This document shows, one piece after another, positions 5,508 to 58,833 of a stretch of 64,000 nucleotides of DNA. The DNA is taken from positions 1 to 64,000 of the forward strand of contig JARGPL010000024.1 of NCBI GenBank assembly GCA_029210175.1, written 5' to 3'. Origin of the DNA: Minwuia sp. Its GTDB lineage: Bacteria; Pseudomonadota; Alphaproteobacteria; Minwuiales; Minwuiaceae. The notes beneath the pieces are model-generated. The model did not search any database, had not been told where the DNA came from, and saw only the letters and a program-made list of their open reading frames with translations. Both the position numbers and the translations under genes were made by a program. How positions within the stretch are numbered: the stretch's first letter is position 1; the number at the start of each line of letters is the position of its first letter.

Positions 5508-6790
5508 TGGCGGGCTCCGGCGGGGCGGTTCAGCAGGGTAGCATTCTGGCCTGATGCCCCCGGGGCAGTGGAATCCCTCTGCCCGTCCGACAGACCCTGG
5601 CGATCCGAGACATTCTGTTGGCCTGGGGCATTCTGTTGGCCTGGGGCATTCTGGCGGCCCGCGGCATTCTGGCGGCGCACCGTCCAGAACCCGTCGCGTT
5701 CCTCCAGAGCCAGGTTCTGCTGGGTCAGCGCCCGGGCCAGCAGCGCGGTGTCGCCGACATGGTGCAGCACCATGATCGCGTCACTGACCGAGATCTGTGC
5801 CAGTTCAACCCGGCGCACCAGCGACACGGCACCAATCGCGCGCTCCAGATCCTGCCAGTCGGCCAGACCGGTGATGCGGACAAGCGCGCTCAACCGTCGC
5901 TGATCCCCGAAACTCTGGATGCTGCGCTGCTTCCACAGATCCTCGATCTCCACCACCATCTGATCGACGGCGGCATTCATGAACGCCACGACGTCGGCGT
6001 CGGGGGTGCTGTCAAAGGCCCGGATGACCACGGGATAGGGGTCGGGCCCAAAGCTGTAGAGCACGATGTCCAGCCGGGCCGTCTGCTGTTCGGCGTCGAC
6101 CAGAAGCGAGGCGTCAGCCACCAGCACGCCTTCGGTCCGGTACCGCTCCGCCACTGCGGCCAGCGGCTCCGCCGCGCCTGTGACGGCCTGTTCGGCGGTG
6201 ATCGTCAGGACGTCATCCACATCGCCGAACGGTGCCACGATGGGGACCAGACGGTCGCGCCCTTCGAACCGTGCCCAGGCGTCGAGCCAGGGGTTGGGGT
6301 CGGCCCAGAGCACCATGTCCCCGCCGGCGCGCAGCACGGGCAGGATCAGGGCGGGCAGGGCGCGGGTTTCGGTAAAGGCGATACCGGCACGATTCAGCAG
6401 CGACCGGACGGCGGCAGGCTGGAAGGTGAATGTCAGGTCGGCGATATAGCGGTCCGGTGCCGTCTTTTCGTTCGCGACCCGCAGGGACACCACCATGTCC
6501 GACAGGGTGGCGTCATCCGGTAGCGGCAGGCCGGGCCAGTCCGCTTGCCGGGTCAGGCGTTGCAGCATGATCCGGGCGGCCTGCAACCGGGCGGTCGCGA
6601 CACCCTGCTGCTTGGCAGTTGCCGCACTTTCGGCCACCACATCCACCGGCACGGCGGAAACGGTGTAGATATCGGATGCGGTCGCGCCAAGTACCGGCAC
6701 GCAGATCAGGAACAGGCTCAGGACAAGACCCAGGACCGTCTCTGACAGGGCAGGCAGGCGCGACAGATGGCGCAGGACGTGGCCAGGCAT
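5504..6790 (-). CDS. DUF2066 family exported protein with repeat tail
   Basis: A 428-residue protein with an N-terminal hydrophobic signal or anchor (residues about 14-40, [21 protein letters not shown]). A DUF2066 core follows ([26 protein letters not shown] at the start, [16 protein letters not shown] in the middle). The last about 60 residues are low-complexity and contain six-residue repeats of the type NAPGQQ, encoded by an 18-bp DNA repeat. DUF2066 has no established function. Its start overlaps the divergent purM start by 24 bp. It is the first gene of the DUF2066-permease-hdaA operon. Confidence 0.82.
5611..5680. repeat. 18-bp in-frame tandem repeat in the DUF2066 gene
   Basis: Two exact copies of an 18-bp unit starting CATTCTGTTGGCCTGGGG (5611-5628, 5629-5646) are followed by two diverged copies up to about 5680. 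The unit is a multiple of three, so it adds six residues (NAPGQQ-type) per copy to the C-terminal tail without breaking the frame. Confidence 0.9.
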
Positions 6791-41082: not shown

Positions 41083-41250
41083 TCGGGCGGGTTCTGTAGG
41101 GTACGTCAGGCACGCATAGCCCCTGGGCCAATATCGCTCTCTCGGGAGCTGTCCCTCGCTGGAACCGTGGTTCCAATGACACGGCACCCACCTGGTAACC
41201 CAGGTCCAAGAGGCGCTTTCAAGCCGACGGCCTGAATGGTCCCGCCCGAG
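41083..41250 (+). ncRNA. ssrS: 6S RNA
   Basis: A 168-nt non-coding RNA candidate directly after zapA, the known alphaproteobacterial position of 6S RNA. The ends pair: TCGGGCGGG (41083-41091) with CCCGCCCGA (41240-41248), and TCAGGC (41106-41111) with GCCTGA (41230-41235). CCCCTGGGCCAATATCG resembles the conserved 5' side of the 6S bubble. Inner hairpins are GGAACC/GGTTCC (41161-41174) and ACCTGG/CCAGGT (41190-41205). 6S RNA binds the sigma-70 holoenzyme by mimicking an open promoter. Exact ends are estimated. Confidence 0.83.
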
Positions 41251-55712: not shown

Positions 55713-55788
55713 GATTCCCGTTTGATTCCGCTGTCTTGGCTCAGGCGCCTCGCAGATCGGTCCACCGATTCGGTCAATTACCCGATTC
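55713..55788. promoter_or_regulatory. Cluster of four GANTC sites upstream of dnaA
   Basis: GATTC occurs at 55713, 55724, 55767 and 55784. GANTC is the target of the alphaproteobacterial cell-cycle methylase CcrM, and methylation state is known to affect dnaA transcription in Caulobacter. Regulation here is inferred, not shown. Confidence 0.5.
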
Positions 55789-56030
55789 GTTCCGCTTGCA
55801 CACTGCCCCCAGAACGATCTATGTTCTGTCGCGTTGACCGGGCGACGGTTGTCCAAGAAAAAGCGTGCGAAATGACAAACAAGAATGCACGGCTTTTGGG
55901 CTAACCTGACTGGTTTGACGCTAATTGTAGCCTGTTGTGATGAGTTATCACGCGTATGTTGTTGAAATATGCGCGACGGGAAAGTCTTGTTCTTTCCTGT
56001 TTCAGGGAATTGGTTTTGGGGGAGGCTGCT

Positions 56031-57569
56031 TTGGGGGACGGGGATTTGCCAGGCACGCCACAGTCGGACAAGGCGATCAGCGACGACAGTCAGGCGGCCC
56101 TCGATCTTCTCTGGCTCGGCGTGTCCCAGCGTGCTGCCCTGACCATCGGGGAGGCGTCCTACAACAGCTGGTTGCGTCCGTTGCGTCCTGTCGCGTTACA
56201 TGACACGCACGTTGTCCTGCTGGCACCCACGGCTTTCCTGAGGGACTGGATATCCAGCAAGTACCGGGCGGTTCTTGAGCGGGAGTTCCGCGTGGACATC
56301 CCGCACCTGCGCGAAGTGGTGATCGAGGTCGGGCTCGATGCCCGGCTGGAGGCGATGACCAGCGACCGCAAGGCGGTGCAGCGTGCCGCTGACAGGCCCG
56401 GCTCCGCTGACAGGCCCGGCTCCGCCGATGTGGCGTGCCGTGATGCTTCGGGTCTGGATGCCGGAACCCCGATGGCCGCGCCGGCGATCATCTCACCCGC
56501 CGATGCGGCCCCCGGGGGCAACGGCAGTGACACCGGTCAGGCCCGGGCCAATGTGCTCGACCGGAACCTCACGTTCGACAATTTCGTGGTCGGCAAACCC
56601 AACGAACTGGCCTATGCCGCCGCCCGTCGCGTCGCCGATGCCGAAGGTGTCGCATTCAACCCGCTGTTCCTCTACGCCGGGGTCGGCCTTGGCAAGACCC
56701 ATCTGATGCATGCGATCGCCTGGCACATCCGGCAGCTGCGACCGGAGCGGAAGGTGCTCTACGTCACTGCCGAGATGTTCATGTATCATTTCATCAAGGC
56801 GGTCCGGTTTCGCGACACGGTGTCGTTCAAGGACCGTTTCCGGTCGGTTGACGTGCTGATGATCGATGACCTGCAGTTCATTTCCGGCAAGGAATCGACG
56901 CAGGAGGAATTCTTCCACACCTTCAACGAACTGATTGACCGCAATCACCAGATCGTGGTGTCGGCTGATCGCTCCCCGTCCGATCTCGAGGGGATGGAGG
57001 AGCGGGTCCGTTCGCGTCTGGCCTGGGGTCTGGTGGCCGACATTCACCCGACCGACTTCGAGCTGCGGGTCGGCATTCTGGAACAGAAACTGGTGTCGCA
57101 GCCCGAGGTGAAGGTGCCGCGCGAAGTGGTGGAGTTCCTGGCCCATCGCATCACGTCCAACGTCCGCGAGCTGGAAGGCGCCATGCGCCGCGTCATCGCC
57201 TATCACGCCCTGATGGGCCGCGCGATCTCCCTCGACATGGTGCAGGAAGTGCTGGCCGACGTGCTGCGCGCCCATGCCCGCAAGGTGTCGATCGACGATA
57301 TCCAGCGCAAGGTCGCCGAACACTACAACATCCGCATGGCGGAAATGTCGTCGGCCCGCCGCGCCCGCGCCGTTGCCCGGCCCCGCCAGGTGGCCATGTT
57401 CCTCGCCAAGCGCCTGACCAGCCGCAGCCTGCCCGAGATCGGGCGCAAGTTCGGCAATCGTGACCACACGACCGTGCTGCACGGGGTGCGCCGGATCGAG
57501 GAACTGATCCAGTCCGACATGACACTGGCCGAAGACGTGCGCCTGCTGGAAGCGGCCCTGTCCAACTGA
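56031..57569 (+). CDS. dnaA: Chromosomal replication initiator DnaA
   Basis: A 512-residue AAA+ initiator. Domain I (about residues 12-90) has LGVSQRAALTIGEASYNSWLRPL. A low-complexity linker (domain II) includes repeated DRPGSA (about 120-131). Domain III has NLTFDNFVVGKPNELAYAAARRV, Walker A GVGLGKTHLM (about 218-227) and Walker B DVLMIDDLQF (about 274-283). Domain IV has the signature RDHTTVLHGVRRI. The TTG at 56031 was chosen because GGGGGAGG lies 5 bp before it; the longer ORF start has no such site. It binds origin DNA and is countered by HdaA. Confidence 0.94.
   Translation: MGDGDLPGTPQSDKAISDDSQAALDLLWLGVSQRAALTIGEASYNSWLRPLRPVALHDTHVVLLAPTAFLRDWISSKYRAVLEREFRVDIPHLREVVIEVGLDARLEAMTSDRKAVQRAADRPGSADRPGSADVACRDASGLDAGTPMAAPAIISPADAAPGGNGSDTGQARANVLDRNLTFDNFVVGKPNELAYAAARRVADAEGVAFNPLFLYAGVGLGKTHLMHAIAWHIRQLRPERKVLYVTAEMFMYHFIKAVRFRDTVSFKDRFRSVDVLMIDDLQFISGKESTQEEFFHTFNELIDRNHQIVVSADRSPSDLEGMEERVRSRLAWGLVADIHPTDFELRVGILEQKLVSQPEVKVPREVVEFLAHRITSNVRELEGAMRRVIAYHALMGRAISLDMVQEVLADVLRAHARKVSIDDIQRKVAEHYNIRMAEMSSARRARAVARPRQVAMFLAKRLTSRSLPEIGRKFGNRDHTTVLHGVRRIEELIQSDMTLAEDVRLLEAALSN
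56388..56423. repeat. 18-bp in-frame duplication in the dnaA linker
   Basis: GCTGACAGGCCCGGCTCC occurs twice in tandem (56388-56405 and 56406-56423), adding one ADRPGS block to DnaA domain II, a length-tolerant linker. Confidence 0.93.
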
Positions 57570-57626
57570 CGGCAGGCCGGTGCCGTCAACTGTGGCCGGG
57601 ACCTGTCCGCGCCTGCCGGTTTCACT

Positions 57627-57716
57627 GGCGAATCCGGATTCGCCCGTGCTATAGGGAGTCTCTTGCCCAAGGTCCAAGTCGGGCAAGATTCCTGGCAACG
57701 ACACCTGGCAAGAATC
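57627..57716. promoter_or_regulatory. dnaN promoter region: 18-bp palindrome and five GANTC sites
   Basis: GGCGAATCCGGATTCGCC (57627-57644) is perfectly palindromic and contains two GANTC sites (57630, 57637). Others are GAGTC (57656), GATTC (57687) and GAATC (57712). A -10-like TATAGG lies at 57650-57655. No clear -35 is seen, as is usual for promoters driven with the help of GcrA at methylated GANTC sites. The arrangement suggests cell-cycle control of dnaN. Confidence 0.5.
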
Positions 57717-57720
57717 CACG

Positions 57721-58833
57721 ATGAAACTTACCATTGAACGTACCGCGCTGCTGGTCTCCCTCAACCATGTGCAGAGCGTGGTCGAGCGCCGCAACACGAT
57801 CCCCATTCTCAGCCATGTGCAGATCGAGGCGACCGCCGATGGCGTGCGCTTCCGCGCCACGGATCTGGAGCTTGCCGTGGTGGAGAACTGTGCCGCCATG
57901 GTGGAAACGCCGGGCATGGCGACCGCCCCTGCGCATACGCTCTATGACATCGTGCGCAAGCTGCCCGACGGTTCCGACATCCAGATGAGCCTGGATGTGG
58001 AGCGGCGGCGGCTGAACCTGCAGGCGGGCCGGTCCCGCTTTGCGCTGGCGTGCCTGCCGAATGAGGATTTCCCGACCATCGAGGATGATGAGCTGCCGCA
58101 CCGGTTCAATCTGCCGGTGGCGACGGCGCGGACCCTGCTGGAGCGGACCAAGTTCGCGATCTCGACGGAAGAAACCCGCTATTACCTGAACGGCATCTAT
58201 GTGCATGCCACGGAAGATGGCGGGCATGTCCGCGCCGTGGCGACGGACGGCCATCGCCTGGCCCGGTTCGAGATGGAGGCCCCGGCCGGTGCGGAAGCCC
58301 TGCCCGGCGTCATCATTCCGCGCAAGGCGGTGAACGAGATTCACAAGTTGCTGGGTGATGCCGGTGGCGAGATGGAAGTTTCGGTTGGGGAAACCCGCAT
58401 CCGGTTCAGTATCGGTGACACGGTGCTGACGTCCAAGCTGATCGACGGCACCTTCCCCGACTATGAACGCGTCATTCCGTCGGGCAATGACAAGCGCATG
58501 GATGTGGATGCAAAGGTGTTCCTGTCGGCGGTGGACCGGGTGTCCACCATCTCCACCGAGAAATCCCGCGCGGTGAAGATGGCGCTGCAGAACGAGCGGA
58601 TGACCCTTTCGGCGAACAGCCCCGACGCGGGCAGCGCCTCGGAAGAGGTCATTGTCAGCTATGAATCCGACGACATGGAGATCGGTTTCAACTCCAAGTA
58701 CCTGATGGATGTTGCCAGCCAGATCGATGGCGAGACCGCCATCTTCGAACTGGCGGATGCCAACTCACCGACCCTGATCCGGGATGCGGATGACGCGTCG
58801 GCGCTCTATGTGCTGATGCCCATGCGGGTCTGA
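57721..58833 (+). CDS. dnaN: DNA polymerase III beta subunit (sliding clamp)
   Basis: A 370-residue clamp subunit that tethers polymerase to DNA as a ring dimer. It opens MKLTIERTALLVSLNHVQSVVERRNTIPILSHVQI, with ATDLELAVVENCAA, FPTIEDDELPHRF, YYLNGIYVHATEDG, RAVATDGHRLARFE and the final LYVLMPMRV, the usual clamp end. It is the third gene of rpsT-dnaA-dnaN-recF-gyrB and starts 151 bp after dnaA, so it may have its own promoter. Confidence 0.96.
   Translation: MKLTIERTALLVSLNHVQSVVERRNTIPILSHVQIEATADGVRFRATDLELAVVENCAAMVETPGMATAPAHTLYDIVRKLPDGSDIQMSLDVERRRLNLQAGRSRFALACLPNEDFPTIEDDELPHRFNLPVATARTLLERTKFAISTEETRYYLNGIYVHATEDGGHVRAVATDGHRLARFEMEAPAGAEALPGVIIPRKAVNEIHKLLGDAGGEMEVSVGETRIRFSIGDTVLTSKLIDGTFPDYERVIPSGNDKRMDVDAKVFLSAVDRVSTISTEKSRAVKMALQNERMTLSANSPDAGSASEEVIVSYESDDMEIGFNSKYLMDVASQIDGETAIFELADANSPTLIRDADDASALYVLMPMRV

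Follow-up and report, generated by a model that had tools for sequence, protein, structure and literature searches.

Introduction

In Caulobacter crescentus, the methylation state of GANTC affects the transcription of ctrA, dnaA, ftsZ and mipZ, and both the scarcity of this word and its enrichment between genes are already known (PMC3973325). The promoters that respond to CcrM and GcrA in this species, such as ctrA P1, mipZ and podJ, carry GANTC within or beside the −35 and −10 elements (PMC4287350, PMC3667746). In ctrA P1 the site lies at about −29, and position relative to −10 and −35 goes with timing class: start sites that have GANTC between the two elements switch on at 40-60 min, and start sites that have it outside them are at their lowest during that time (PMC4287350). 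Only 11 of the 96 cell-cycle start sites with GANTC have more than one within 50 bp upstream, and the available text mentions dnaN for its multiple promoters and not for GANTC (PMC4287350). An earlier note on the DNA studied here took the effect of CcrM, with GcrA and CtrA, on Caulobacter dnaA expression as established. That precedent holds in part: dnaA is listed among the methylation-responsive genes (PMC3973325), but mutation of its putative methylation site caused no significant promoter change (PMC3885167), steady-state DnaA levels are unchanged in a ΔccrM strain (PMC3667746), and CcrM is reported as not required for the control of initiation (PMC3973325).

In a comparative study of GcrA, ccrM was a core target; the extended motif YGAKTCK had been proposed for GcrA in Caulobacter, and no such preference was seen in Brevundimonas (PMC7987155). 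This study omitted the Minwuiales, for which there were no high-quality assemblies, and the word dnaN is absent from its main text, the part covered here (PMC7987155). We found no link between dnaN and GANTC in the literature searched, which lay mostly outside subscription journals. Among other replication genes, the promoter PA of Agrobacterium repABC-Ch2 contains three GANTC sites, two of which are critical for replication of the module (PMC11514494).

The locus described here lies in a window of 64,000 nucleotides, the whole stretch of DNA that was analysed, from a genome that, based on DnaA, has among its closest named relatives Minwuia MAGs and strain IMCC3096, whose genome is complete. 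As in C. crescentus, ccrM, gcrA and ctrA are present, and GANTC is scarce overall and enriched between genes; as in the responsive Caulobacter promoters, GANTC would lie within or beside the −35 and −10 positions predicted for dnaN. Unlike in those promoters, up to five sites occur in one short gap, at dnaN. GANTC precedes dnaA in both organisms, but Caulobacter dnaA has one putative site of disputed effect (PMC3885167), whereas four lie within 76 bp here, upstream of the predicted −35. The Agrobacterium promoter is similar in having several sites before replication genes, but it drives a secondary-replicon operon and not dnaA or dnaN. Finally, the Minwuia ccrM gene, like the core GcrA target, has a conserved three-site cluster in its promoter.

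GANTC clusters upstream of dnaA and dnaN

The open reading frames around the clusters read, in this order, as purE, purK, rpsT, dnaA, dnaN, recF and gyrB, with 57721-58833 as dnaN. The earlier note had reported four GANTC sites spanning 76 bp before dnaA and five spanning 87 bp before dnaN, and both clusters were confirmed. The features are as follows (strand is given where it applies; genome counts include our own genome):

55713-55717: GANTC site 1 before dnaA; GATTC, predicted −119; same place in G005, 1-base-shifted GANTC in G002 and G003
55724-55728: GANTC site 2 before dnaA; GATTC, predicted −108; aligned in G005, G002 and G003
55767-55771: GANTC site 3 before dnaA; CGATTCG, predicted −65; fits YGAKTCK; common to G005 only
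55784-55788: GANTC site 4 before dnaA; CGATTCG, predicted −48; aligned and fitting YGAKTCK in 4 of 4 close genomes
55796-55825, + strand: predicted dnaA promoter, from conservation by eye; −35 TTGCAC at 55796-55801, 18-nt spacer, −10 TATGTT at 55820-55825
56031-57569, + strand: dnaA; probable TTG start at 56031 in a conserved start region; the frame opens at 55956
57627-57644: 18-bp palindrome with dnaN sites 1 and 2; not conserved
57630-57634: GANTC site 1 before dnaN; GAATC, predicted −32, −91 from the ATG; 7 of 7 genus members
57637-57641: GANTC site 2 before dnaN; GATTC; not conserved
57647-57655, + strand: predicted extended −10 of dnaN; TGC TATAGG, with TGCTATA identical in 9 aligned family members
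57656-57660: GANTC site 3 before dnaN; GAGTC, predicted −6 to −2, −65 from the ATG; 5 of 7 genus members
57687-57691: GANTC site 4 before dnaN; GATTC, in the leader; not conserved
57712-57716: GANTC site 5 before dnaN; GAATC, −9 from the ATG; 5 of 7 genus members, with either A or T in the middle
57721-58833, + strand: dnaN, DNA polymerase III sliding clamp (open reading frame)

The start of dnaA is more likely the TTG at 56031 than the ATG at 55956, given that this start and a Shine-Dalgarno-like sequence appear, by eye, conserved in four genomes. With this start, the dnaA cluster would lie about 250-320 bp before the start codon. A scan with the sigma70 consensus picked up neither the dnaA nor the dnaN promoter, and the predicted positions of both rest on conservation. 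At dnaA, the stretch GAACGATCTATGTTCTG (55812-55828), which contains the predicted −10, is identical in four genomes. If TATGTT is the −10 and TTGCAC the −35, the GANTC sites, four in number, would all fall upstream of the latter, from −48 to −119. At dnaN, TATAGG as −10 predicts a transcription start near 57662 and places one conserved GANTC site at −32 to −28 and another at −6 to −2, so that they bracket the predicted extended −10. Elements resembling this extended −10 precede dnaN in many alphaproteobacteria. If the position rule of Caulobacter were to apply, dnaN and dnaA would be predicted to fall into different timing classes. The extended GcrA motif YGAKTCK fits two of the four dnaA sites in this genome (55767 and 55784) and none of the five dnaN sites, and the −9 site of dnaN fits it in four relatives.

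We also looked at the further elements that the earlier note mentions. No TTAA-N7-TTAA CtrA box with up to one mismatch was found in the window, and a part for CtrA is not supported. The 18-bp palindrome does exist and holds two GANTC sites, but it is absent from relatives, and we rejected it as an operator together with the weight placed on it. As a separate observation, GAACGATCTATGTTCTG also holds GAAC-N7-GTTC at the predicted dnaA −10, a possible repressor site; the only other such match in the window is at 5687.

Rarity of the clusters

From base composition, GANTC is expected at 3.34/kb, in agreement with the earlier estimate of about one in 300 bp. The actual density is 1.51/kb in 359 kb of the genome, about half of that prediction, and the window contains 94 sites versus a mean of 268 in dinucleotide shuffles. 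Given that the real density is below the compositional expectation, clusters are rarer than had been assumed. A larger sample of 759,223 bases (18.6% of the genome), in which genes were called by a simple script in place of a standard predictor, gave 1.46/kb in coding and 2.43/kb in noncoding DNA. This sample has 460 noncoding gaps that are 25 bp or longer, and three of them contain at least four GANTC within 87 bp, namely those at dnaN (five), at the end of an IS630-like element (five) and at dnaA (four); two others have three sites, 18 have two, 105 have one and 332 have none. A smaller sample of 221 gaps contained no third gap with at least four sites, and the IS630-like end appeared in the larger one. 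Thus, within the sampled 18.6%, unrelated genes do not often have such clusters, and one of the three belongs to an insertion sequence. A further four-site cluster, at L136:12409-12486, lies partly within a weakly scoring called gene.

Random placement of the 190 gap sites produced a pair of gaps with four or more sites, one of them with five or more, with P = 0.0006, and a single gap with four or more with P = 0.12; by this test, the dnaA cluster taken by itself is only moderately unusual. In local dinucleotide shuffles, none of 20,000 reached the observed count in the dnaN gap (five sites versus 0.5 in shuffles), and the corresponding value for the dnaA gap was P = 0.002. The GC content is 52% in the dnaA gap and 64% in the dnaN gap, the latter being like that of the genome sample.

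Conservation in relatives

The region upstream of dnaN was compared among seven genus members (our own genome and G001-G006). GANTC occurs at −91, −65 and −9 from the dnaN ATG in five of the seven, our own included, and at −91 in all seven. The −9 site reads GAATC in two genomes and GATTC in three, so that GANTC persists there despite a change in its middle base. The sites at 57637 and 57687 are, like the palindrome, private to this genome. Upstream of dnaA, for which G001 and G007 are left out of the comparison because of contig ends, four GANTC within 87 bp are present in all four close genomes (our own, G005, G002 and G003), with some turnover of individual sites. In G004 and G006, which are more distant within the genus, no 87-bp stretch at either gene holds more than two GANTC. 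Within the wider family, G008 has three GANTC in 87 bp before dnaA, and G007 has none before dnaN.

GANTC words were kept more often than other four-of-five words in all 11 pairwise comparisons, which share ancestry and are not independent. Between our genome and G002, for example, two of four GANTC were retained at dnaA, versus 0.17 of other words, and three of five at dnaN, versus 0.33. In a comparison at ccrM, three of three were retained, versus 0.62. The bases neighbouring conserved GANTC sites are also conserved. Conservation within the genus supports a function of the clusters.

CcrM, GcrA and CtrA

The frame preceding ccrM reads by eye as rnhB. The earlier note had asked for ccrM and gcrA to be confirmed, and both proved to be encoded in the genome. 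CcrM (361 aa; C38:97610-98692, 33.6 kb past the end of the window) has PF01555 and PF18755 with a C-terminal RAMA domain and matches the solved CcrM structure PDB 6pbd at 2.9e-156; ccrM was found in all eight family relatives searched. The gcrA gene (PF07750, 119 bits; match to 7ye1 at 8.4e-22) and hemE lie some 7.5 kb apart on contig C2, and a CtrA-family gene scores 417 bits against a cut-off of 350. In the ccrM promoter region (L003:1288-1430), three GANTC lie within 70 bp and are conserved in five of five close genomes, in each of which the third reads, by eye, YGAKTCK; in the family member G007, seven GANTC occur in the 200 bp before ccrM. Within about 300 bp upstream there are two GANTC at gcrA, one each at ftsZ and mipZ and none at hemE, and ctrA has two in 400 bp.

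Two side observations concern other loci in this genome. A prophage-like region with portal and terminase genes (L137; C15:34001-54000) carries a second GcrA-like gene, which adjoins an N6/N4 methylase gene and a C5 methylase gene. In addition, a 6S RNA is found at 41088-41246 (Rfam RF00013, 65 bits).

Survey across the class

At 74 distinct loci outside the genus, GANTC was 2.33 times as dense in the 200 bp before dnaN as in the rest of the locus, where seven control motifs gave ratios of 0.68-1.67; at least one GANTC is present before dnaN in 51 of these loci. A class-wide cluster at dnaA was rejected, with a ratio of 0.89 in the 350 bp before dnaA at 76 loci outside the genus.

We then divided dnaN upstream regions by CcrM state. 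The set comprised 138 regions, mostly one genome per genus with five genera represented twice (g6, g28, g37, g95 and g147); two regions (G013 and G025), neither in the CcrM-positive group, had no start codon at the expected place. GANTC density before dnaN was 4.54/kb in 109 genomes with a strong CcrM match (controls 1.83-3.72) and 4.44/kb in a small group of 18 with none (seven) or a weak one (11), several of them draft assemblies (controls 0.83-4.72). The latter group includes G101, whose genus mate has CcrM, and G156, counted as without CcrM from its absence among the CcrM matches. Ten genomes of undecided state were kept apart, including G007 and G008, both later found to have ccrM. Given that the two groups do not differ, this control does not support a class-wide role of methylation at dnaN.

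Among 84 CcrM-positive genomes with a strong −10, nine have a GANTC that starts 19 to 17 nt upstream of the −10, counted from its first T, an offset that was noticed before it was counted, in sets that overlap in part. This is the strongest 3-bp peak of eight motifs: the seven control motifs give 0-2 there and reach at most 5 anywhere from −60 to +40. A GANTC fixed at about −30 of dnaN therefore exists in a minority of genomes.

Possible function of the clusters

We lean towards the explanation that the dnaA and dnaN promoters are methylated by CcrM and that their activity depends on methylation state, which is probably read by GcrA. The clusters are then most likely a further case of the known CcrM/GcrA methylation clock and not a new kind of system. 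CcrM would methylate the sites at both genes late in the cycle, the moving fork would then leave them hemimethylated, and promoter strength would be altered until CcrM acts again. One conserved dnaN site would overlap the −35 position (−32 to −28) and another would follow the −10 immediately (−6 to −2), and GcrA bound to sigma70 RNA polymerase could act directly at these places. The dnaA sites are all upstream of the predicted −35, so their timing may be different. A promoter with several sites could respond more sharply. Of the methylation-timed control proposed in the earlier note, the presence of ccrM, gcrA and a CtrA-family gene, the rarity of the clusters and their conservation in the genus stand, a part for CtrA and weight on the palindrome are not supported, and the control itself is what we infer. 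The evidence weighing against our explanation is that none of the five dnaN sites fits YGAKTCK, that two of the five and the palindrome are private, that G004, G006 and G007 have few or no such sites, that dnaA shows no enrichment outside the genus, that the effect of methylation at Caulobacter dnaA is contested, and that genomes poor in CcrM have a similar GANTC density before dnaN.

That last result speaks for the alternative that the GANTC letters are kept as sigma70 promoter or leader sequence, with methylation incidental. The −91 and −65 sites of dnaN directly flank the predicted −10, and adjacent bases are conserved as well, which agrees with such an explanation. However, the −9 site stays GANTC while varying its middle base, none of the four dnaA sites falls within the predicted core promoter, and the dnaN gap holds far more GANTC than its shuffles, so that we regard conservation as promoter letters as somewhat unlikely. 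It is also conceivable that the sites act via methylation without GcrA, through another reader or a bound protein that keeps them unmethylated. Some GANTC sites are unmethylated in Caulobacter and Brevundimonas, with MucR bound at some Caulobacter sites (PMC7987155), and the misfit of the dnaN sites to YGAKTCK points the same way; but the genome encodes GcrA, which is known to read GANTC methylation at promoters, and dnaA sites 3 and 4 do fit the motif. We consider action without GcrA quite unlikely.

Chance, or a by-product of AT-rich intergenic sequence, might account for one gap with at least four sites, and the dnaA gap is only 52% GC. This was already disfavoured and is very improbable, given the P-value for both clusters together, the ordinary GC content of the dnaN gap and the recurrence of sites at fixed places in relatives. 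Least credible of all is a replication origin at dnaA that includes the clusters and whose firing is controlled by GANTC methylation. The repABC loci, with origins inside repC, are often rich in GANTC (PMC11514494), but no DnaA box TTATCCACA with up to one mismatch occurs near dnaA, the only one in the window being at 6213. Moreover, the complete relative G003 has hemE and a weak MipZ (ParA-like) match at 1.77-1.79 Mb and dnaN at 1.53 Mb, and its GC skew, from a sparse and noisy sample, has no clear switch at dnaA. In G003, hemE is 0.26 Mb and the MipZ/ParA-like match 0.24 Mb from dnaN; if the origin lies near hemE, as we suppose, dnaA and dnaN would be replicated early.

Returning to methylation by CcrM with GcrA as the probable reader, the finding would extend this clock to an order omitted from the comparative study, and it points to dnaN as a GANTC-bearing promoter. 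The differing placement of sites at dnaA and dnaN offers a direct test of whether position relative to −10 and −35 sets timing, and if multi-site promoters behave unlike single-site ones, the disputed role of dnaA methylation becomes testable again. A broader and rather doubtful reading is that the Minwuiales have a methylation clock on the replication machinery, in which dnaA, dnaN, gcrA and ccrM are linked in a loop by their multi-site GANTC promoters, each passing fork would reset the supply of initiator and sliding clamp jointly, and the number of sites would set a sharp switch. As part of this same doubtful reading, the GANTC at about −30 of dnaN may go back to an old feature of the whole class that a minority of lineages have retained.

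A GANTC cluster at an insertion sequence

Transposons under the control of Dam methylation may offer a parallel to the third cluster found among the gaps, which belongs to an IS630-like element. Its five GANTC sites lie within 58 bp at the element end (L312:14630-14687; C24:284630-284687), apparently just before the transposase, which has a DDE_3 domain. In two other copies with 85% identity, the corresponding stretch contains four GANTC.
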